This document shows positions 1,114-41,790 of a stretch of DNA of 64,000 bases, piece after piece. A model generated the notes under the pieces. That model had not been told where the DNA came from. It ran no database searches and saw only the letters and a program-made list of their open reading frames with translations. The stretch covers positions 2,337,041 through 2,401,040 of the forward strand of contig NZ_CP087952.1 in assembly GCF_028752835.1 (NCBI RefSeq). Reading direction: 5' to 3'. Both the position numbers and the translations under genes were made by a program. The stretch is from Desulfosarcina sp. BuS5. GTDB lineage: Bacteria > Desulfobacterota > Desulfobacteria > Desulfobacterales > BuS5. Positions within the stretch are counted from its first letter, which is position 1. Each line of letters begins with the position of its first letter.

Positions 1114-1301
1114 AAAATCTATAAAGGAGGTGATACGGAAAAATATAAGCAGTGGCGGTTTTTGAGCGATGAAATTGAAAGAGGATAAAACTGAAGGAGT
1201 TTTGAGCAATGGCGGAAAAAATTGAGAACAATAATTCAGAAGAAACACAAAATGGAAAGAAAAGAAACAAAATCAAAAACAATTCTAAAAAGGAGGAAAT
1301 C

Positions 1302-3887
1302 ATGGCGGACTCAAAGATGAACGCAAGTGTGCTCAATGAGTTTGAAACTTTGTTTGAAAGTATTAAAAAGGGCCGTTTGGATGCCAGGGCGGATCTGGGC
1401 GATACAACCGGTGCTGACAGGGAAATGCTTGAAGGCGTGAACGAAATGCTTGACGCAGTAATCGGCCCGTTGAACGTGACGGCCGAGTATGTAGACCGTA
1501 TTAGCAAGGGCGACATCCCGGAAAAGATCACGGATGATTATAAAGGCGATTTCAATGAGGTCAAAAACAACCTGAACCAGTGCATTGATGCTATTAACCT
1601 CGTGGTTTCTGATGGTCTGCTGCTGGTTGAGGCGACGCAGGAAGGCAAGCTGGACACGCGCACTGATGCAAGCGGGCACGCGGGTGCCTTCCGCGAGATT
1701 ATCGAAGGGTTCAATAAATCCATGGACGCCGTTATCGCTCCTTTGAACGTAATGGCCGAGTATATGGTCCGCATCGGCAAGGGCGATATCCCGGAGAAGA
1801 TCACGGATGATTATAAGGGTGATTTTAATGAGGTCAAGAACAACCTGAACCAGTGCATTGATGCTATTAACCTCGTGGTTTCTGATGGTCTGCTGCTGGT
1901 TGAGGCGACGCAGGAAGGCAAGCTGGACACGCGCACTGATGCAAGCGGGCACGCGGGTGCCTTCCGCGAGATTATCGAAGGGTTCAATAAATCCATGGAC
2001 GCCGTTATCGCTCCTTTGAACGTAATGGCCGAGTATATGGTCCGCATCGGCAAGGGCGATATCCCGGAGAAGATCACGGATGATTATAAGGGTGATTTTA
2101 ATGAGGTCAAGAACAACCTGAACCAGTGCATTGATGCTATTAACCTCGTGGTTTCTGATGGTTTGCTGCTGGTTGAGGCGATGCAGGAAGGCAAGCTGGA
2201 CACGCGCACTGATGCAAGCGGGCACGCGGGCGCCTTCCGCGAGATTATCGAAGGCTTCAATAACTCCATGGACACCGTTATCGGGCCTTTGAACGTAATG
2301 GCCGAGTATATGGACCGCATCAGCAAGGGCGACATCCCGGAGAAGATCACTGATGATTACAAGGGTGATTTTAACGAGGTCAAGAACAACCTGAACCAGT
2401 GCATTGATGCTATTAACCTCGTGGTTTCTGATGGTCTGCTGCTGGTTGATGCGATGCAGGAAGGCAAGCTGGACACGCGCACTGATGCAAGCAGGCATGC
2501 AGGCGCCTTCCGCGGGATTATCGAAGGCTTCAATAACTCCATGGACGCCGTTATCGCTCCTTTGAACGTAATGACCGGGTATATGGACCGCATCGGCAAG
2601 GGCGACATTCCGGAGAAGATCACTGATGATTATAAGGGTGATTTTAATGAGGTCAAAAACAACCTCAACGTCTGTATTAATGCCCTGAACGGTTTGATTG
2701 ACGAATCCGCCCGTCTGGCAGATGGTGCAGTTGAGGGTAAACTCGATGTACGCGGAGATGCCAGTAAGTACATGGGCGAGTTCGGCAAGATCATTCAGGG
2801 TGTAAACAACACGCTTGATGCGATTATTGGCCCTTTGAATGTAGCGGCCGAGTATGTGGACCGGATCAGCAAGGGCGACATCCCGGAGAAGGTCACCGAT
2901 GATTACAAGGGCGACTTCAACGAGATCAAGAATAACATCAACATGATGATAGAAAATCTTACCCGTTTTGCAGTCGATGTGCAGTCAGCCGCTGATCAGG
3001 TCGCTTCAGGCAGCGAGCAGATCAGTTCAGCCGCTCAGCAAATGTCCCAGGGAGCGACCGAGCAGTCGGCAAACGTCGAGGAGATCTCAAGCTCCATGGA
3101 GGAGATGAACAGCGCTGTAAACCAGAATGCGGACAACGCAAAGGAGACCGCCTCCATTGCCAAAAAGGCCGCCACCGACGGAAAGGAAGGAGGAAATGCC
3201 GTAGAAGAGACGGTTCAGGCCATGAAGAGCATTGCCGACAAAATCGGGATTATCGAAGAGATAGCCAGGCAGACCAACATGCTGGCTCTTAATGCGGCTA
3301 TTGAGGCGGCAAGGGCGGGTGAATATGGTAAGGGTTTTGCCGTGGTTGCAGCGGAAATCCGCAAACTTGCCGAGCGCAGCCAGGATGCGGCAAAGGAGAT
3401 CAGCACCGTTTCGGCAAGCAGCGTGGAGATAGCGGAAAAAGCCGGCAAGCTTCTCGAAGAGATCGTGCCCGGCATTCAGAAAACAGCCGAGCTGGTGCAG
3501 GAAATAAACGCTTCAAGCGCTGAGCAGGCGCGCGGAATTGACCAGACCACCAAGGCGATTCAGCAGTTAGACCAGGTGATACAGCAGAGCGCAAGCGCTA
3601 CTGAGGAGATGGCTTCGACCTCCGAGGAACTCGCCGGCCAGGGGGAACAGCTCAGGGGAACCGCGGCGTTTTTCAAGGTAAGCGGCAATGGTTCTGAAAA
3701 TTCGGGGCAGTTAAAAACCGGACGTGCCGTAGCAAAAGCCGGAAATGCGCTTAACAAAACAGCTTCTCACGCAAGCCACGCTGCCGGACAAATTGTTAAC
3801 AGCGGCGCGGTATTTGTAAACAAAAAGGAAAATGGGATTTCTCTGGACATGAATGACGCAGCCGACGCTCAATTCGAGAGGTATTAA
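1302..3887 (+). CDS. Soluble poly-HAMP methyl-accepting chemotaxis protein
   Basis: A cytoplasmic receptor of 861 residues that should signal to CheA through CheW. No transmembrane segment is visible. The N-terminal two thirds consist of alternating HAMP-like segments: the GDIPEK motif occurs six times, spaced 91 residues apart, alternating with [10 protein letters not shown]-type segments, so about twelve HAMP modules. The C-terminal third is a standard MCP signalling domain with the tip motif around [13 protein letters not shown]. The last residues, QFERY, fit the aromatic-x-x-aromatic pentapeptide that tethers CheR/CheB in some receptors. ATG 1302 has AGGAGG five bases upstream; an in-frame ATG at 1209 also has GGAG and would add 31 Lys/Asn-rich residues. 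CheW starts 29 bp after the stop. Confidence 0.93.
1538..2623 (+). repeat. Four tandem 273-bp HAMP-coding units
   Basis: Within the receptor gene, 273-bp units start near 1538, 1811, 2084 and 2357. The units at 1538 and 1811 encode identical residues and are, by eye, almost base-for-base identical; the later two are slightly diverged. The first and sixth units of the wider array (around 1470 and 2840) are more diverged. This points to recent unit duplication or unequal crossing over in the middle of the array. Confidence 0.9.
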
Positions 3888-5186: not shown

Positions 5187-6127
5187 ATGCAAAGCGGTGT
5201 GGCTGCTGAATCAGCGTTTAAAAATATCTCTATGTCAGACCGGCTGTTTAAACGTTTTGGTGAGTTTATTTATAAAGAATGCGGCATCAAACTTCCGCCT
5301 GCCAAAAAAACCATGCTCACCGTCAGGCTTTTCAGGCGGCTGCGTGCCCTTGGCATGAATTCGTTCGGCCAATACTATGACTACGTATGCAGCCCGGAAA
5401 GCCGCAGTGGGGAGCGTATACGGATGATCGATGCTGTCAGCACAAACAAAACGGATTTTTTTCGTGAGCCGGCGCATTTTGACATTTTGGGAAGACAGGC
5501 GCTGCCGGATCTTGTCGGTTCAATGCATAATGGCAGCCGCAAAAAGCTGAATGTCTGGAGCGCAGGCTGTTCCAGCGGAGAAGAACCTTATACGCTGGCC
5601 ATGGTACTGTCGGAATTTTTTACTGAAAGACAAAACAAAGCTCAGGCTGATGCGAAATCGCTCACCCGACCACTCGACCAGTTTTCCATACTCGCAACCG
5701 ACATCTCCATACAAGTGCTGGAAACTGCGAAAAAAGCAATCTATCCAAAGCAAATGGTTAACCCTGTCCCTCCCATGATGAAACGAAAATATCTTATGCA
5801 TGGCACCGGATCACAGAAAGAGTTCTATCGGATGGTACCTGAATTGCGCAGCCGAATAACCTTTCAGAGGCTCAACTTTATGGAAAATAATTTCGGAATA
5901 CGGATGCTCATGGATATTATATTCTGCCGTAATGTCATAATTTACTTTGACCGGCAGACCCAGATCAAGTTGTTTGAAAAATTTTATAATCAGCTTGCCC
6001 CGGGAGGATATCTTTTTATAGGTCATTCGGAATCACTTCACGGAATTAACAACCGGTTCCGTCTTGTTGCAACCACTACGTACAAAAAACCTGGTAAGGC
6101 AACCGGTACCAACACAAAAACGGAGAG

Positions 6128-6131
<4 letters not shown>
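5187..6131 (+). CDS. cheR: CheR chemotaxis protein methyltransferase
   Basis: Full-length CheR of 314 residues: an N-terminal helical domain (about 15-75), a TNKTDFFRE motif (86-94), the SAM-binding motif NVWSAGCSSGEEPYTLAM (122-139), a PxxMKRKYL element, and the CRNVIIYFDR motif with GYLFIGHSESL near the end. It methylates receptor glutamates with SAM. ATG 5187 has AAGGAG about eight bases upstream. The stop overlaps the start of the next gene (ATGA), so they are translationally coupled. Compare the truncated CheR-like protein at 330. Confidence 0.95.
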
Positions 6132-8465
<2,334 letters not shown>

Positions 8466-10016: not shown

Positions 10017-10078
<62 letters not shown>

Positions 10079-10116
10079 GTCTAATAATCGCCCTTTTAGC
10101 TGTCTGCTGTTTTCTA

Positions 10117-11895
10117 TTGTACTATTTTCATTACGTCCTTGAAATCGGCACTGGTTTTACCCACTTCTTCTATGTTCCAATAATCCTGGCATCGTTATGG
10201 TGGCAGAGGAAAGGTTTGGGCGTAACCCTGTTGTTGGCCATTCTTCTGCTTTTTACCCACTATTTCTTGCGAGATCCTATAGGGGCCGGCAATGATTATT
10301 TTCGGGCGTTTATGTTTGTGTCTGTCGGTTTTGTAGCGGCTCTGGTAAGTGAGAGAATTGTGAAGAAAAATGAAAGCCTGCGGGAGAGTGAGGGAAAATT
10401 CAAAAGCCTGTTTGAGAATATGAAAAGCGGAGTTGCCGTATATGAGGCAGAGAACAACGGAAAGGATTTCATCTTTAAGGATTTAAACAAGGCAGGAGAG
10501 CAGATAGACAAAATTGCCCGCGGAGAGCTTATCGGCAAAAGTGTCCTGGAGATTTTCCCTTCTATAAAAGATTTTGGCCTTTTCGACGTGCTCCAACGAG
10601 TATGGAAAACAGGACAGCCGGAACATCATCCAATAACTATATATAAAGATGAAAGGATAACCGGCTGGAGAGAAAACGATATCTACAAATTGCCTTCAGG
10701 CGAAATAGTCGCTGTTTATGATGACGTTTCCGAACGTAAGCAAATGGAGGAGGCGCTCCAGAAGAACGAAAGAAATCTTTCCATAACACTCAATTCAATA
10801 GGAGATGCAGTTATAGCAACAGATACCAAAGGCCGCGTTACACGAATGAACCCGATTGCAGAAAAGCTTACCGGCTGGAATTTGTCTGAGGCAAAAGGAC
10901 GTCCTCTCATCGAAGTATTTAACATTATAAATGAGGAAACTCGTAAACAAATGAAGAGCCCTGCTGAAAAAGTAATGCGGGAAGGAACTATCGTTGGTCT
11001 GGCTAACCATACAGTCTTGATCTCGAAAAACGGCACAGAGACTCCTATTGCAGATAGTGGCGCGCCGATTAAAAACGATCAAGGCGATATCTTTGGTATT
11101 ATATTGGTTTTTCGCGATATTTCAGAAAAAATAGAAGCTGAGAAGCAAAAGAAGAAATTAGAGGCTGAAGCCATGCGGACCGGTCAATTAGTGTCGATTG
11201 GTGAAATAGCGGCCGGCGTTGCCCATGAGATCAATAACCCCATAAATTCAGTTATAAACCTGGCCCAGATATTGCTTGATGAATGTAATAGCGAAAGTTC
11301 GGAATATGATATTGCCGGACGGATTATCAAGGAGGGTGACCGTATTGCCAATATTGTCAGCAACCTCCTTTCTTTTGCACGGGGCAACATGGAAAAAGAA
11401 AAAAATTTGGTAAACCTGTCTGAAATCATCTCTGATACGCTTGTTCTGGCAAAAGTCCAGATGCAAAAGGATCAAATAGAGTTAAGGGTCAATATTCCTT
11501 TAAATTTGCCCAAAATTATTGCAAACCCACAACAGATTCAACAGGTTTTCCTGAATCTCATAATCAATGCGCGATATGCCTTGAACCAAAAATATTCCGG
11601 GACGCATGAAAATAAAATACTTGAGATCCTGGGTGAAGAAGCAACTATTGATGATTGCCCCTATGTCCGGGCCATTTTTCAGGACAACGGCATAGGGATA
11701 CCCGCCAATGAAATTAAAAAGGTTATAAACCCGTTTTATTCAACCAAACCCACCGGCATAGGCACCGGCCTGGGCTTGAGCATCAGCCATGGCATTATCA
11801 GTGATCATGGCGGTTATATAAGAATTGAAAGCACCGAGGGTGAATTTACCAGGGTAATAATCGATCTTCCGGCTTCCGGCAAGGAGAAGAGATGA
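10117..11895 (+). CDS. Membrane PAS histidine kinase, partner of the sigma-54 regulator
   Basis: Visible order: about three hydrophobic helices (up to residue 75), PAS (about 95-205), PAS (about 220-340), HisKA with phospho-His in AGVAHEINNPINSV (about residue 371), HATPase_c with NLIINARYA, DNGIGIP and GTGLGLSI motifs. The frame is open upstream to the poly-A tract, and residues before 10117 (ISLIIALLAVCCFLL) form part of the first membrane helix, so TTG 10117 is not the true start. The natural start is probably ATG 9959 (MTGKPTYDKSKPGR then a Lys run), reachable if the tract were one A longer or two shorter. The stop overlaps the next start by 4 bp, pairing it with the response regulator. 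Confidence 0.88.
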   Translation: MYYFHYVLEIGTGFTHFFYVPIILASLWWQRKGLGVTLLLAILLLFTHYFLRDPIGAGNDYFRAFMFVSVGFVAALVSERIVKKNESLRESEGKFKSLFENMKSGVAVYEAENNGKDFIFKDLNKAGEQIDKIARGELIGKSVLEIFPSIKDFGLFDVLQRVWKTGQPEHHPITIYKDERITGWRENDIYKLPSGEIVAVYDDVSERKQMEEALQKNERNLSITLNSIGDAVIATDTKGRVTRMNPIAEKLTGWNLSEAKGRPLIEVFNIINEETRKQMKSPAEKVMREGTIVGLANHTVLISKNGTETPIADSGAPIKNDQGDIFGIILVFRDISEKIEAEKQKKKLEAEAMRTGQLVSIGEIAAGVAHEINNPINSVINLAQILLDECNSESSEYDIAGRIIKEGDRIANIVSNLLSFARGNMEKEKNLVNLSEIISDTLVLAKVQMQKDQIELRVNIPLNLPKIIANPQQIQQVFLNLIINARYALNQKYSGTHENKILEILGEEATIDDCPYVRAIFQDNGIGIPANEIKKVINPFYSTKPTGIGTGLGLSISHGIISDHGGYIRIESTEGEFTRVIIDLPASGKEKR

Positions 11896-13577
11896 AATCT
11901 AAAATTCTGATTGTTGATGACGAGGAAAACTTAAGATTCAGCCTGGAAAGATTTCTTTTGACTGCCGGATATGAGGTGGCGACCGCTGAAGATTACGATG
12001 TAGCCATGGCCAGGATAAATGAAACGAATTTAGATTTGATATTCTCGGATATTATCTTAAAAGGCAAGACCGGAATTGATATCCTGCAGGCGGTAAAGGA
12101 AAGAAACCTGCAATCTCCGGTTGTGTTGTTTACCGGCGCCCCCAATATTGAAAACGCTTCAGAGGCTGTCCGGCTGGGTGCATTTGACTATCTTCCCAAA
12201 CCGGTACGGCAGGAAACATTGTTGCGGGTTGCCAAATCAGCTTTGCATCATAAGGCTCTGATTGATGAGAAAGAGAGCTACCGCGCAAACCTTGAAGCTA
12301 TTTTCAAAAGCGTCAAAGATGCTATTATTACTGTGGATCAAGAGTTGTCGGTTATCGAAGTCAATGATACTGCCGGAAAGATATGCGGAATTTTCCGGGA
12401 TGCGGCCATCGGCAAGGCCTTTAATACTTTGCTGAAAGGGTGCCATGGAAAATGCCTTGAAATCATGAAAGAAACTATCAGGAAAAAACAGCCTGTTGAA
12501 GCGCGTCGGGTTGAATGCCATCGCAAAGACCGGCCGGAGCAGGTTGTATCCCTGACCGCATATCCACTTTTAAATCGCCGGAACCTGTTTTCAGGGGGAA
12601 TCCTGGTGGTCAGAGATGAAACCCGCCTGGATAATCTGGAGCGAAATCTGAAAGAACGTCAACAGCTTCATAATATTATCGGCAAGAGCGTGAAAATGCA
12701 GAAGGTTTATTCTCTCATAAAGGGACTGACCGATGTTCAGACCGGAGTTTTGATTACCGGAGAAACCGGAACCGGCAAGGAACTGGTTGCAGAGGCGCTC
12801 CACCATCAAGGAGTGCGCAAAAATAAAACACTTGTAAAGGCCAACTGTGGAGCCCTGTCGGAGGATTTGCTGGAAAGTGAACTTTTTGGACATATCAGGG
12901 GCGCATTTACCGGCGCTGTGAGAGATAAGATCGGCCTGTTTCAAAGAGCCGATGGTGGAACCATTTTTCTGGATGAAATCGGTGAGACTTCACCCCGGGT
13001 ACAACTGCGCCTGCTGAGGATCCTTCAGGAAATGGAATTTCAGCGTGTGGGAGATTCAACCCCGATCAAGGTGGATGTGCGGGTGGTTGCCGCTACCAAC
13101 AAAAATCTCCGTGAAGAAGTAAGACTTGGCAGGTTCCGGGAAGACCTTTATTACCGTTTAAAGGTGGTGGAAGTAAGCATGCCTCCGCTCAGGGATAAAC
13201 GGGATGATATACCTCTTTTAGTTGAGCACTTCCTTAAAAAGTTCAACCGCAAGTTCAACAAAAAAAATATTACGATTTCGGAAGATGTGCAGAAGATATT
13301 TATGGAATATTCCTGGCCGGGTAATGTCAGGGAGCTGGAACATGCGCTGGAGCATGCATTTATCCTTTGCAGCAGGGAAACTATTGTCGTCGATCATTTG
13401 CCGCCTGAATTAAAGGTTCTCAATGCCCCTAAAGGAGAAGAGGACGATTATTGCCGGATCATCCTTCATGCTCTTGAGCAGACCCGCTGGAACAAAACCG
13501 AGGCAGCCCGTTTACTGGGGATAAGCCGGCAAAGTTTATATAGAAAAATCAAAGCTTTCAGGATTATGAAAAACTGA
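11892..13577 (+). CDS. NtrC-family sigma-54 activator with PAS domain
   Basis: 561 residues: receiver (Asp53 in IFSDIILKG, Lys103), PAS (about 133-245) containing several cysteines (GCHGKC), AAA+ sigma-54 interaction domain with Walker A GETGTGKE (290-297) and the sigma-54 contact loop GAFTGA (337-342), and a Fis-type helix-turn-helix ending (WNKTEAARLLGISRQSLYRKI). It should be phosphorylated by the overlapping upstream kinase, bind enhancer sites and drive sigma-54 promoters. Two matching palindromes and a sigma-54 promoter lie just downstream. The PAS cysteines could add metal or redox sensing; that is inference. Confidence 0.95.
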   Translation: MKSKILIVDDEENLRFSLERFLLTAGYEVATAEDYDVAMARINETNLDLIFSDIILKGKTGIDILQAVKERNLQSPVVLFTGAPNIENASEAVRLGAFDYLPKPVRQETLLRVAKSALHHKALIDEKESYRANLEAIFKSVKDAIITVDQELSVIEVNDTAGKICGIFRDAAIGKAFNTLLKGCHGKCLEIMKETIRKKQPVEARRVECHRKDRPEQVVSLTAYPLLNRRNLFSGGILVVRDETRLDNLERNLKERQQLHNIIGKSVKMQKVYSLIKGLTDVQTGVLITGETGTGKELVAEALHHQGVRKNKTLVKANCGALSEDLLESELFGHIRGAFTGAVRDKIGLFQRADGGTIFLDEIGETSPRVQLRLLRILQEMEFQRVGDSTPIKVDVRVVAATNKNLREEVRLGRFREDLYYRLKVVEVSMPPLRDKRDDIPLLVEHFLKKFNRKFNKKNITISEDVQKIFMEYSWPGNVRELEHALEHAFILCSRETIVVDHLPPELKVLNAPKGEEDDYCRIILHALEQTRWNKTEAARLLGISRQSLYRKIKAFRIMKN

Positions 13578-13595
13578 ACAGCCCGCATTATAGCA

Positions 13596-13615
13596 ATGTT
13601 ACAATTTGTAACCTG
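13596..13615. promoter_or_regulatory. Enhancer-like palindrome 1 (GTTACA-n3-TGTAAC)
   Basis: ATGTTACAATTTGTAACCTG: a 15-bp perfect inverted repeat (13598-13612) that recurs with few changes at 13766-13785. It starts 18 bp after the activator stop codon and about 290 bp upstream of the sigma-54 promoter, a plausible distance for a bEBP enhancer. Confidence 0.6.
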
Positions 13616-13765
13616 AATTTTGTAAGGCTGTTATTTTACGGCATATTCTCCCTCACCCTGCCCTGCCAGGGAAGCTTTTTCAAGAAAAGCTCAGTCCGGC
13701 CATGTTTTGTCTAACATATTAAAATTGCAGCAACATTATACTTACGACTTCAATCCTTTCCTGTG

Positions 13766-13785
13766 ATGTTACACTCTGTAACCTG
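13766..13785. promoter_or_regulatory. Enhancer-like palindrome 2 (GTTACA-n3-TGTAAC)
   Basis: ATGTTACACTCTGTAACCTG matches palindrome 1 at 17 of 20 positions, including ATGTTACA and TGTAACCTG flanks. Its centre is about 129 bp upstream of the sigma-54 -12 GC, the usual enhancer distance. Two near-identical sites in 170 bp argue for a bound dimer pair. Confidence 0.62.
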
Positions 13786-13890
13786 TAAACCCCGACTATC
13801 ACATTCAAGCCACTCCCCCTCCCTTTCCCTCCTGCTATAACCAATAGTTATTATTATAAAAAGTTTAATTCAAGCTGCTTTGTATCTTTC

Positions 13891-13906
13891 CGGCATATCT
13901 TTTGCG
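13891..13906 (+). promoter_or_regulatory. Sigma-54 promoter
   Basis: CGGCAT-ATCTT-TTGCG fits the -24/-12 pattern TGGCAC-N5-TTGCW: GG at 13892-13893 and GC at 13904-13905 with exactly ten bases between. It is 53 bp before the small protein gene at 13959 and downstream of two enhancer-like palindromes and an NtrC-type activator gene. Confidence 0.65.
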
Positions 13907-13958
13907 TAATAAAAGGACAAGGGGTCGCTCAAAACAAATTTCATACTTTGAGGTATAG

Positions 13959-14174
13959 ATGCAGATGAATGGAACAGACAACAGCAATAACCAAAAAAAA
14001 CTGGACCGCATCTGTCCTTTTATTCAAAACCCTCACAAGGACTGCCATTGCGTAGATATGAACAGTCGCAAGGTAAATGATGTAATATATTACTGTCAAA
14101 AAAATTTTAAAAAATGTAAAATCTATAAAAGGCTTTTAAAGGAGAGACAGCATGCCCAGAATACTGGTTGTTGA
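13959..14174 (+). CDS. Small Cys-rich protein, first gene of the sigma-54 operon
   Basis: 71 residues with seven cysteines, five of them in the middle segment (CPF, CHC, YYC, KKC), a pattern suggesting a metal-binding or Fe-S mini-domain. No membrane helix or signal peptide. ATG 13959 follows TTGAGG. The last 23 bases overlap the start of the next gene, so translation is coupled to the sensor kinase. I do not recognise a named family. A redox or metal accessory to the receiver-kinase is possible but unproven. Confidence 0.6.
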   Translation: MQMNGTDNSNNQKKLDRICPFIQNPHKDCHCVDMNSRKVNDVIYYCQKNFKKCKIYKRLLKERQHAQNTGC

Positions 14175-18548: not shown

Positions 18549-18602
18549 TTTCGTCCTCGTTCCTAATGAACGGGGACGTTAATTCGTCCTCGTTCCTAAC
18601 GT
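18549..18602 (+). repeat. REP-like inverted repeat after the receptor gene
   Basis: CGTCCTCGTTC and GAACGGGGACG form a hairpin with an 11-bp stem and one mismatch, followed by a further CGTCCTCGTTCC half unit. The same units (GGAACGGGGACGAAAT) follow the stops at 8468 and 21607. It may act as a transcript 3' end or REP element; there is no strong T run, so I do not call a terminator. Confidence 0.6.
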
Positions 18603-18677: not shown

Positions 18678-18693
18678 TGGCATAAACATTGCT
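18678..18693 (+). promoter_or_regulatory. Sigma-54 promoter upstream of the PhnD-like hybrid kinase
   Basis: TGGCAT-AAACA-TTGCT matches TGGCAC-N5-TTGCW with only one change in the conserved blocks; GG (18679-18680) and GC (18691-18692) are ten bases apart. The start codon is 116 bp downstream. No copy of the GTTACA palindrome is seen nearby, so a different activator, or more distant sites, may be used. Confidence 0.7.
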
Positions 18694-18808: not shown

Positions 18809-21607
18809 ATGTCTGTATTTAAAATAAAAAAGCCCCGCATACGTATCGGGATTTTTTTTATATTGGGAATATTTTTTTTGTCTATTCTATCGACACCCTG
18901 CGCTAAGGAAGCAGCCGAGTCTGTCAGGATAGGCGTGCTGGCCAAGCGCGGGGCAGACCTGTGTTTGCAAAAATGGGGGCCGACGGCCGGATATCTGACT
19001 CAAAAAATACCGGGATATTCTTTTGAAATTGTTACCATGGATTTTGATTCGGTCTATTCAACAGTTCAGCAAGCCAGGGTTGATTTTATTATAGTTAATC
19101 CCTCTTTTTACGTTGGACTTGAATTAAAGCATAATGTTAGCCGGATTACCACATTAAAAAACCTGTGGAACGGTAAAATAGCCACAGAATTCGGCGGAGT
19201 AATTTTTTGCAGGGCCGACCGCAATGATATCCGGCAAATCGCCGATCTCAAGAACAAAATATTTATGGCGCCCGACAAAAATTCTTTTGGCGCATGGCAA
19301 GCCGGCCGGCTGGAGCTGAAAAAGCATGGCATTGATCCTTATCACGATTTTAAGAATTTGCGTTTTGGCGGCACACATGACGCGGTTGTTTACGCTGTGC
19401 GCGACGGTAAGGTAGATGCCGGTTCCGTAAGGACAGACGCTCTTGAACGTCTGGCAAAAGAAGGCAAAATCAATCTAAAAAATTTCTTTATAATTAATGA
19501 ATACAAAGATAAACTTTTTCCCTTTGTTCATTCGACCCCGCTTTATCCTGAATGGCCGTTTGCCAAAGTAAAACATACATCCAACGATCTGGCCGAAAAG
19601 GTTGCGGCCGTCCTTTTGAAGATGCCCTCTGACAGCCCTGCTGCAATGGCCGCTAAATGCGCAGGCTGGACAATTCCCAGTAATTACCAGCCGGTGCATC
19701 AATGTCTGAAAGCGCTGCGAATCGGCCCATACAAAGATTACGGCAAAATGAGCATCCAGGAAATGTTCCGGCAACACTATTACTGGTTTTTCGGAGTCAT
19801 AGCAGCCTTTATTGTTCTGTTGTTGATGTTTCGATTTTATCACGATATCAATAAAAAACTTAATGCCGCCCTGGCCGACCGGGAAGAAGAAATAATTAAG
19901 CAAAAACAAATTCGGGACGATATGGCGGAAATGAACATTACTTTGGAACAGGCTATTGATCGAGCCAACCGGATGGCCGTAGAGGCCGAGGCCGCCAGTA
20001 TATCTAAAAGCGAATTTTTGGCCAATATGAGCCATGAAATCAGAACTCCCATGAATGCAGTGCTCGGTTTTTCCGAAATGCTGCTTGATACCGGTCTTGA
20101 TGAAGAACAGCGTGATTATGTCAGCACCATTCAAAGAAGCGGCGAATCCCTGCTTTCCTTAATTAACGATATTCTTGATTTTTCCAAAATCGAGGCCGGC
20201 CATCTCGATTTTGAGGAGATCGACTTTGATCCGGAACTTCTGGCCTATGATGTCTGCGAACTGATCCGCCCCAGGATCGGATCAAAACCGATCGAAATTT
20301 TGTGCCGCATCGGGGAAAGCATACCTGCCATTGTAAAAGGAGATCCGACCAGGTTCCGGCAGGTACTGATCAACCTTATGGGCAATGCCCCAAAGTTTAC
20401 CGAATCCGGCGAAATTGAGTTAGCCCTTGATGTTGAAGAAGAAAATAGTAACCGGATAAAACTTCATGCAGCAATAAGGGATACCGGCATCGGTATTCCC
20501 GAAGATAAACTTGAAACCGTTTTTGAGCCATTCAAGCAGGCCGACGGTTCAACCACAAGAAAATATGGCGGCACAGGTCTGGGTCTGGCCATCTGCAAAC
20601 AGATCTCGGAGCTTATGGACGGAAAGGTCTGGGCGGAAAGCAAAGCAGGCCAGGGTTCTGTTTTTCATTTCAGCGCCTGGCTGCAAAAGTCGGAAGAAAA
20701 AGAGCTTAAAAAAATTACGCCGGTATCTCTATCCGGTAAAAAAGCCATTATTGTTGATGACAACCTGACAAATCTGGAGATTTTAGCTCATTCCTTAAAA
20801 ATGCTCGACCTTGAATCTGTCGCCCTGAATCAAGGCGAAGATGTTCTTCCGGCCTTAAAAAACGCCATTAAAGCAGGTGTTCCTTTCGAGCTTGCCTTTC
20901 TGGATATACAGATGCCGGGCATGGACGGCTATGAATTAGCCAAACAGATCCGCAGCGCCGCAGAAATACCTATCAAAGACCTGCCTCTTGTCGCGCTTTC
21001 TTCTTTAATGGGACGGGATTCCGGTAAATGCGAAGAGGCCGGATTTAACGGCTTCCTCAGCAAACCGATTCAAAGAAAAAAACTGCATAATATGCTGAAA
21101 AAAATCATGGGAGAAAAAGCAGATAAAAACATAAAAGAGAACGCAGCAGAACCCAGGATCGCTACTCAACACACTGTCCGGGAGGAGATGAAACAATCGG
21201 CGCGGATACTTCTTGCAGAAGATAACCCGGTTAACCAGAAACTGGCAAACCTGATGCTGAAAAAGGCAGGGTATAAAGTTGAAGTAGCCAATAACGGCAA
21301 AGAGGCCTTTGAAAAATATACCGTCGCGCCTGCGAATTTTAACCTGATTTTTATGGATCTCCAGATGCCCGGGATGGATGGAATTGAAGCAACCGGGGCT
21401 ATTCGGGATTGGGAAGAAACATTTGCGGATCAAAGCCCGGAAGGCATGGAAAAAACGAAACATATTCCGATCATCGCCATGACCGCCAACGCCATGAAAG
21501 GCGACCGGGAAATGTGCCTTGAGGCCGGCATGGATGACTATATTGCAAAGCCGATTAAAAGAGAGCTTGTCTTTGATATGATCAAAAAATGGGTGTTGGA
21601 AGGTTAG
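18809..21607 (+). CDS. PhnD-like periplasmic sensor hybrid histidine kinase
   Basis: 932 residues: signal/anchor helix (12-30), a periplasmic phosphate/phosphonate-type solute-binding domain (about 38-310; [38 protein letters not shown]), second membrane helix (325-345), coiled linker, HisKA with phospho-His409 ([12 protein letters not shown]), HATPase_c (GTGLGLAI), and two receivers ([13 protein letters not shown] and [13 protein letters not shown]). PhnD-type sensor domains bind oxyanions or small ligands; the ligand here is unknown. Read alone, from its own sigma-54 promoter, with a REP-like sequence after the stop. No output domain or HPt is visible, so its target lies elsewhere. Confidence 0.95.
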
Positions 21608-21623
21608 GAACGGGGACGAAATT
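21604..21623 (+). repeat. REP-like GGAACGGGGACGAAAT after the hybrid kinase
   Basis: TAGGAACGGGGACGAAATTC begins at the stop codon of the hybrid kinase. It is the same unit seen after 8468 and as an inverted pair after 18545. Confidence 0.5.
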
Positions 21624-40943: not shown

Positions 40944-41790
40944 ATGAGCAAAGAAAATAAAATCCAATTGTTTCAAGAGCAAAGCGTAAGAACACATTGG
41001 GATGAAAAGCAAGAAAAATGGTTTTTTTCTATTGTGGATGTTATTGCAATTTTAACGGAGCAAAAAGATTATCAAGGAGCAAGAAATTACTGGAAAGTAT
41101 TAAAACATAGACTTGTGAAAGAAGGAAACGAAACGGTTACAAATTGTAACCGTTTGAAAATGATTGCCAAAGATGGCAAAATGCGAATGACTGATGTAGC
41201 AGATACTCAACAGCTATTACGTCTTATCCAATCTGTTCCATCGCACAAAGCAGAACCTTTTAAAATCTGGTTGGCAAAAGTAGGGGCACAGCGGATAGAC
41301 GAAATAGAGGATCCCGAACTATCTTTTGAACGTGCTATGGAAACCTATCTTGCAAAAGGATACTCCACAGGGAGTGGATAAACCAGCGCCTGAAAAGTAT
41401 TGAAGTTAGAAAAGAACTAACAGACGAATGGCAAGAAAGAGGAATGAAACAAGGCTTGGAATACGCCATTTTAACCAATGAACTCACTCAAGCCTGGGCC
41501 GGCAAAAATGTAAAAGAATACAAGAAATACAAAGGGCTTTAAAAAGGAAAACCTGCGAGATAATATGAGCAACCTTGAACTGGTTTTAAATATGCTTGCA
41601 GAAGCTTCTACAGCAGAAATATCGAAAGAAAAGATACCAAAAGGATTAGAAGAAAATAAGGATATTGCTCGTAAAGGTGGTAATGCTGCTAAAAAAGCAA
41701 GATTGGAGATTGAAAAACAAACAGAAAAACCAATTGTAACGACTAAAAATGCAAACAACCTTTTAGACAAACCTAATCATAAAAATATTG
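40944..41790 (+). pseudogene. BRO-N family phage antirepressor-like protein, frameshifted
   Basis: The first 140 residues (KIQLFQEQSVRTHWDEKQEKWFFSIVDVIAILT; NYWKVLKHRL; ETVTNCNRLKM; DVADTQQLLRLIQSVPS) fit BRO-N proteins related to prophage antirepressors. At about 41361 two extra bases cause a stop after KGYSTGSG; the alternative frame continues with the expected REWINQRLKSIEVRKELTDEW and later SNLELVLNMLAEASTAEIS. The tail is cut at 41790 by a transposase derivative. A 25-bp perfect palindrome lies inside it. Confidence 0.8.
41131..41155. repeat. 25-bp perfect palindrome inside the BRO-N gene
   Basis: AAACGGTTACAA, one A, then TTGTAACCGTTT: twelve-base arms pair perfectly. It encodes the family's conserved Thr-Val-Thr-Asn-Cys-Asn segment, so codon conservation may explain part of it. 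Confidence 0.8.

Follow-up and report, generated by a model that had tools for sequence, protein, structure and literature searches.

A predicted two-component sigma-54 switch next to a chemosensory operon in Desulfosarcina sp. BuS5

Our analysis of a 64,000-nucleotide stretch of the genome of Desulfosarcina sp. BuS5 (hereafter the window) suggests with good confidence, on the basis of sequence comparisons, that it carries a self-contained two-component sigma-54 switch for an adjacent chemosensory operon. We infer that a membrane kinase (10117-11895) would phosphorylate an NtrC-type regulator (11892-13577) whose Fis-type helix-turn-helix (HTH) would bind the two GTTACA-n3-TGTAAC palindromes that closely follow its own gene. 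The stretch from the palindromes to the promoter would loop, perhaps aided by IHF, and the GAFTGA ATPase would open the RpoN holoenzyme at 13891-13906, leading to transcription of an operon for a small cysteine protein, a hybrid kinase, CheW and a chemoreceptor. A single signal would in this way provide the sensory equipment of the cell with an additional receptor, coupling protein and kinase; a che operon, with CheA by our own reading, lies a few kb upstream of the locus. The original prediction of a kinase/activator pair switching on a chemosensory module is favored as regards the paired sites, the sigma-54 promoter and the adjacent operon, given the conservation of the sites and of a promoter-like element, the association of the site type with the recognition helix and the operons of two close relatives (G049 and G002). 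It is probably wrong as regards the hybrid kinase as partner of the activator, and the operon comes without its own CheA, CheY, CheR and CheB.

Gene organization of the locus

All genes of the locus point in the same direction, on the forward strand. The first one (P0006, 10117-11895) codes for a membrane-anchored PAS-PAS-HisKA-HATPase histidine kinase. Its exact start is uncertain because a near-unbroken run of A, at about 10045-10105, sits between two reading frames, the upstream one ending there and that of the kinase opening behind; the run is either an assembly artefact or a real poly-lysine stretch. The kinase gene overlaps the activator gene by 4 nt, and in many loci the activator homologue is immediately preceded by a homologous kinase. 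This histidine kinase, encoded upstream of the activator gene and overlapping it, is most likely the cognate kinase, and not the hybrid kinase of the target operon.

The activator P0001 (11892-13577) is a REC-PAS-Sigma54_activat-Fis HTH response regulator with a GAFTGA loop and the recognition helix SRQSLYRK. The NtrC-type assignment made originally was upheld by matches above cut-off to PF00072, PF00158 and PF02954, together with a PAS and an AAA lid domain, and by the GAFTGA motif itself, which is kept in 50 of 62 homologues, the other 12 having variants such as GSFTGA, GAFSGA, GSFSGA, GAYTGA and GAFTDA. P0001 does not belong to the NCBIfam NtrC equivalog (TIGR01818), for which it scores 397.9 against a cut-off of 558.6. 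It was also rejected as a member of PrdR (NF041552), a model that aligns over residues 1-556 with 340.8 bits against a curated cut-off of 795. The genome as a whole has 19 strong and 4 weak Sigma54_activat matches, P0001 included.

The predicted target operon begins with a 71-aa cysteine protein (P0002, 13959-14174), followed by a REC-PAS-HisKA-HATPase-REC hybrid kinase (P0003, 14152-16092), CheW (P0004, 16080-16592) and a methyl-accepting chemotaxis protein (MCP) with an HBM sensor domain (P0005, 16626-18545). The order and nature of these genes had been anticipated correctly, with Pfam support for the last three. We infer a single operon because the genes overlap or are closely spaced: the cysteine protein gene overlaps that of the hybrid kinase, which in turn overlaps that of CheW, and the receptor gene starts 33 nt later. 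Pfam searches of the target operon found no CheA, CheY, CheR or CheB, only CheW, MCP and the hybrid kinase beside the cysteine protein, so that it does not code for a complete chemosensory system (CheA and CheY with receptor and CheW). A separate upstream cluster in the window contains, according to Pfam, an MCP (1209-3887), CheR (5187-6131) and a receiver-kinase (6128-7357), to which our own reading of the sequence would add CheW, CheD and CheB, with a putative CheA just outside the window (L047 gene 17).

Downstream of the operon, the next gene (18809-21607) codes for a hybrid kinase with a phosphonate-binding-type periplasmic domain and is preceded by a canonical sigma-54-like site, TGGCATAAACATTGCT (18678-18693), near which GTTACA-n3-TGTAAC was not found. 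REP- or MITE-like repeats TTCGTCCTCGTTCC occur at 18550-18563, 18583-18596 and 21607-21620. In locus L092, an element of this type with inverted ends separates the first palindrome from the stop codon of the activator gene.

Two rare palindromes and the recognition helix of the regulator

The predicted activator sites are a distal palindrome, GTTACA-ATT-TGTAAC (13598-13612), and a proximal one, GTTACA-CTC-TGTAAC (13768-13782), symmetrical and assigned to neither strand. They are contained in two 20-mers that read ATGTTACAATTTGTAACCTG (13596-13615) and ATGTTACACTCTGTAACCTG (13766-13785) in the window. Both have the perfect GTTACA-n3-TGTAAC core at the coordinates originally given; the identity between the two 20-mers had been put at 17 of 20 bases and is actually 18, with two differing positions. 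The palindrome centers are 170 nt apart and lie 287 nt (distal) and 117 nt (proximal) before the promoter GG.

Three perfect copies of the palindrome occur in the window. With up to two mismatches there are four matches against 1.68 expected; such loose matches are near chance expectation, so that only perfect copies are informative. The whole genome (4,175,088 bases, two contigs) contains three perfect palindromes and five with one mismatch, and a reversed control pattern gives two matches at up to one mismatch. Beyond the pair at the locus, the one further perfect copy in the 4.18-Mb genome (window 41136-41150) was rejected as a regulatory site, lying within a coding sequence that we read as BRO-like. 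The genome-wide palindrome search proposed with the original prediction did not turn up another perfect site in non-coding DNA; all it gave was a similar layout after a different activator gene. There, a one-mismatch match (C1:604951) stands directly behind the activator gene, which has its own sigma-54-like element. No sigma-54-like element was found in the 1 kb examined around the matches at C1:942997 and 3290470. The match at 1967790 lies about 0.7 kb to the downstream side of a minus-strand sigma-54-like match (1968494), and none of the sigma-54-like matches listed for the genome is within 35 kb of that at 3944303.

Homologues of the activator were found in 13 of 40 genomes at E ≤ 1e-100 and in 55 of 389 genomes of the order at E ≤ 1e-150 (65 matches), our genome being included in both counts. 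We compared 72 loci, comprising 49 of these 65 matches, one from the 40-genome search and others reached through the cysteine protein. In 62 of them, one masked locus having been excluded beforehand, the homologue spans at least 450 residues; one has too little downstream DNA, leaving 61.

Between the window and two relatives with 88% identity, the arm bases of the palindromes are invariant at 23 of 24 positions, compared with 164 of 285 other bases (Fisher p 1e-4). Both palindromes are present in these two close relatives; five loci that are more distant have them as well, accompanied by a sigma-54-like element. At least two palindromes (at up to two mismatches) occur in 8 of the 11 loci whose regulator has the helix SRQ[SNH][LI]YR, window included, versus 1 of the 50 others (Fisher p 5e-7, a value that ignores kinship). 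The three same-helix loci without the site pair are L096, with one weak site, and L100 and L103, with none. The spacing between palindromes is not constant (170, 169, 168, 170, 230, 139, 131 and 120 nt), and the two-site spacing of classical NtrC promoters is narrower than the 120-230 bp seen here. More generally, among loci with R-Q in the helix, 13 have GTTAC sites, 2 have TGTGYC sites and 5 have neither, versus 2, 17 and 22, respectively, among loci without R-Q. In a tree built without the HTH, GTTAC sites appear in several places, and only two independent pairs are supported, the sign test being not significant. We thus rejected the helix-site covariation as independent proof of binding; the association, with its few independent events, is consistent with direct binding by the regulator.

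It seems improbable that the palindromes are instead bound by another DNA-binding protein, either a second activator or a repressor, with the NtrC-type regulator acting elsewhere. Candidates would be at hand, given the 18 other strong Sigma54_activat matches in the genome, and cross-binding is conceivable, as similar paired repeats (GTTGCAAAATGTAAC / GTTGCAAAGTGTATC and CGGCATTCAATTTGCA) come after the activator gene whose AAA domain is at C1:604018. Against this, the palindromes follow a P0001-type regulator gene in several families with different downstream operons, and the site type goes with the recognition helix of that same regulator, although over few independent events. Binding by P0001 itself is the reading we retain. 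The layout behind the other activator gene (G000:C1:603577-605137; L199:1078-2638) resembles that of the window also in its order: GTTGCAAAATGTAAC and GTTGCAAAGTGTATC come first, then CGGCATTCAATTTGCA and then a gene that we read as UspA-like.

The sigma-54-like promoter and the intergenic region

The sigma-54-like promoter CGGCATATCTTTTGCG (13891-13906, forward strand) has the GG-N10-GC structure claimed for it, with GG at 13892-13893, GC at 13904-13905 and exact spacing. It fits the broader TGGCAC-N5-TTGC context except for the base before GG, which is C where the consensus has T. The genome encodes RpoN, with one PF04552 match of 208 bits. When we searched the 600 nt after the activator stop codon for the pattern [TC]GGC[AC][CT]N5TTG, a sigma-54-like element was present in 43 of the 61 loci, window included, and absent from 18. 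The controls gave 1 of 61 on the reverse strand, a mean of 1.7 and a maximum of 5 in 50 dinucleotide shuffles, and 8 of 209 downstream of other genes (at least 250 aa).

The base that follows TTG in these 43 elements is A in 19, C in 14, T in 8 and G in 2, the sigma-54 consensus being C; in this they are unlike the published consensus of D. vulgaris, tTGCt, as given in the accessible part of PMC4641369. The two closest relatives of the window have GA (TTGA), not GC (TTGC), at the -12 element, and 11 of the 16 promoter bases are invariant among the three close sequences. The A-rich -12 elements of the activator loci are possibly weaker or differently opened promoters. Across our own genome, 82 sigma-54-like matches have C (50), T (12), A (11) or G (9) after TTG, and many of them must be due to chance. 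GA at -12 is also found in TGGCATGCATATTGAA, which follows another activator gene of the same genome (G000:C1:92619-94259, L200) that by our own reading has no receiver domain; the genes behind it read as rubredoxin/desulfoferrodoxin-like.

Between the activator gene and that of the cysteine protein there are 381 nt, which contain, between the two palindromes, an inverted repeat AGCTTTT-tcaag-AAAAGCT (13673-13691, forward strand). This repeat is largely kept in the three close sequences, with an altered 3' arm in L002, and is possibly the terminator of the kinase-activator transcript. It is a better terminator candidate than the palindromes, which were rejected in that role as they have no T-run.

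That intergenic stretch with its inverted repeat parts the genes and speaks against the operon being transcribed mainly by read-through from the kinase and regulator genes, or from a sigma-70-type promoter, with the sigma-54-like element minor or decayed. The co-directional genes, the C before GG and the TTGA in place of TTGC in the two closest relatives would all fit such a scenario; however, no sigma-70-like site is listed on the forward strand from 12636 to 14092 and most loci have a similar element after the activator gene, making it quite unlikely. Even less credible is the idea that the repeats play no part in regulation and are RNA or mobile-element features, such as terminator stems or REP-like repeats. 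This might be suggested by the TTCGTCCTCGTTCC copies nearby at 18550 and 18583 and by the element in L092, but the palindromes are short, have no T-runs, are nearly unique in the genome and are largely confined to those loci whose regulator is of the matching class (8 of 11 versus 1 of 50). We keep to a predicted sigma-54 promoter served by putative regulatory palindromes.

As for IHF, the sequence WATCARNNNNTTR, which we take to be its consensus, is found without mismatch in 9 of the 42 regions of the family (100 shuffles: mean 0.62, maximum 4) and with at most one mismatch in 24 of 42 (shuffles: mean 10.9, maximum 18). No perfect WATCARNNNNTTR was found in the window, and we do not assign an IHF site to it in spite of the enrichment in the family. 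An uncertain, degenerate IHF-like match, TATAACCAATAGTTATTATT (13836-13855, reverse strand), lies near the place where some relatives have WATCARNNNNTTR. IHF has been reported at sigma-54 promoters of D. vulgaris, according to the accessible part of PMC3897727.

Different operons behind the same predicted switch

Chemosensory genes follow the switch in the window and in its two close relatives. In G049, whose activator is 88% identical, the promoter precedes a hybrid kinase, CheW and an MCP, and the cysteine protein is absent. The kinase core of G049 is 77% identical to that of the window over 517 residues, while no match to its N-terminal sensor part was found in the window. In G002, a receiver protein and CheW come after the promoter before the contig ends.

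In more distant relatives, by contrast, the same palindromes precede non-chemosensory operons, a point on which the original prediction needs correcting. They stand before a TRAP transporter operon in L093, before an aminotransferase and an aldehyde dehydrogenase in L095 (models just under their cut-offs) and before a 199-aa protein without an NCBIfam match in L094. In L098, they precede TorC-like, TorD and TorA/BisC-family proteins, with scores above the curated cut-offs for TorD (153.5 vs 132) and for two S/N-oxide reductase models (1110 vs 1017.6 and 1005 vs 909) and below the cut-off for TorC; L113 has a gene set that, from our reading of the sequence, is arranged in much the same way. In L096, the locus with one weak palindrome, the first 321 residues of a reading frame resemble the N-terminal half of sulfoacetaldehyde acetyltransferase (600.6 vs 620, below cut-off), and an aminotransferase comes after it. 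These differing operons at the same palindromes imply that the target changes while the cassette of kinase, activator and sites stays.

A family of small cysteine proteins

The first protein of the target operon, P0002, has no recognizable relatives among described families: Pfam returned none, NCBIfam a single match at E 0.11, PHROGs a best E of 0.032 and a PDB profile search a best E of 0.14, its weak matches being taken for chance. Among 27 members of the family searched against Pfam, four touch SUKH_6 (best E 0.02), two SMI1_KNR4 (best 0.0046) and single ones seven other families (best 0.0027); these identities were rejected, the matches being weak and scattered and read as chance. The AlphaFold2 model of P0002 is poor (mean pLDDT 61, pTM 0.39). 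C19, C29 and C53 are nevertheless present in all 27 aligned members, and Y30, C46 and Y56 in at least 90%.

Searches for the protein gave matches in 11 of 194 genomes of the order and, by profile, 10 of 395 of the phylum (our own genome included in each), and in 7 of 148 genomes of a second phylum, where the starting genome was already a known carrier; L177, which comes from that genome, is labeled Nitrospirota. No copy was found in the named genomes and plasmid records searched. Of 36 distinct matches, one with two stops (G192:C196:6363) was set aside, and the neighbors of the remaining 35 were counted by tblastn.

In 19 of the 35, from two phyla, the cysteine gene lies directly behind a regulator matching P0001, on the same strand and with at most one small gene in between; these regulators are that of the window itself and others with 36-62% identity to P0001. 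The kinase gene upstream is visible in 18 of these 19 loci, the exception (G038) having only 1.5 kb of sequence. In six further cases (G192:C196, G155, G059:C16, G083, G881:C16 and G877) the regulator is in the same cluster but not adjacent, and ten (G192:C173, G059:C50, G105, G019, G289:1385466, G541 twice, G370, G881:C7 and G908) have no such regulator in their cluster, G059:C50 and G019 offering less than 2.5 kb of upstream sequence. At an assumed background of 5%, the chance of at least 18 of 35 standing behind the regulator would be 8e-15, for loci that are not independent. A sigma-54-like element lies 11-102 nt ahead of the called start of the cysteine gene in at least 15 of the 35, and in 14 there are same-strand matches to MCP or CheW no more than 5 kb away.

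Four pairs of relatives show 16, 16 and 40 changes at the three codon positions, and 24 codons differ synonymously and 31 do not, a pattern that looks as expected for a coding gene; among the three closest sequences this excess is missing (4, 5 and 2 synonymous against 12, 9 and 3). A second small cysteine motif, C...PYVPS..EL..YC......CP, occurs in L192 (77 aa) and L195 (189 aa): in one setting it stands by itself after an activator gene, in the other it opens a protein that has a receiver-like match. In L045, L042 and L041, a very large protein of 1266-2724 aa that appears to be secreted is encoded after the cysteine gene; two or more of the three are repetitive by eye.

We tentatively speculate that a histidine kinase, an NtrC-type activator and a sigma-54-driven cysteine protein form a widespread module, found in at least two phyla, of which the cysteine protein is the typical output. 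This protein might act as an adaptor for redox or metal sensing, exerting feedback on the kinase or linking it with chemoreceptor arrays, and unannotated genes of this sort might underlie some of the 'small RNA' targets reported after activator genes in Desulfovibrio. We found no description of the protein, or of such a regulon or module, in a literature search that covered a minority of the subscription journals.

Relation to known regulatory systems

In NtrC/NtrB-glnA and other classical enhancer-dependent promoters, paired enhancer sites, a GAFTGA ATPase and an RpoN promoter act together, sometimes with IHF between them. The window likewise has paired sites, a GAFTGA ATPase and an RpoN-type promoter; it differs in the position of its site centers, 287 and 117 nt before GG and 170 nt from each other, and in a regulator that scores under the NCBIfam NtrC cut-off. 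PrdR-type regulators (NF041552) are alike in the length of the alignment, but P0001 is not one of them. In the Che3-CrdA system of Myxococcus, chemosensory proteins control an NtrC-type activator. The window also joins a chemosensory cluster and such an activator, with the direction reversed, as here the activator is predicted to control the chemosensory genes.

The closest parallels come from D. vulgaris. According to the accessible parts of the two studies concerned, genes of enhancer-binding proteins (EBPs) are in many cases co-localized with their own sigma-54 targets (PMC4641369), and seven response regulators have adjacent operons among their targets (PMC3333781). The target assigned to DVU0679, directly after its own gene, is an sRNA, and that assigned to DVU0653, likewise directly after its gene, is an ncRNA or 'missing gene annotation' (PMC4641369, PMC3333781). 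The locus studied here resembles these sigma-54 regulons, as described in the same parts of both papers, in its NtrC-type regulator, in sites that in D. vulgaris are mostly palindromic and in a sigma-54 promoter adjoining the regulator gene; unlike the targets of DVU0679 and DVU0653, its target is a cysteine protein with a chemosensory operon. Neither GTTAC nor TGTAA appears as a string in the main text of PMC4641369 or PMC3333781.

The mechanism is hence of an already known type, that of EBP genes beside their sigma-54 targets in Desulfovibrio, to which our work adds the cysteine protein and the occurrence of the switch before unrelated operons. The locus offers a compact, testable regulon in a Desulfobacterales-type genome, and it points to a small protein family, without any description that we could find, tied to a kinase-activator cassette in two phyla. 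Natural data for linking residues of the recognition helix to DNA sites are available in the many homologous loci whose sites are readable. One and the same cassette of kinase, activator and sites appears before operons as different as those for chemosensing, a TMAO-reductase-like system, a TRAP transporter, and an aminotransferase with an aldehyde dehydrogenase.
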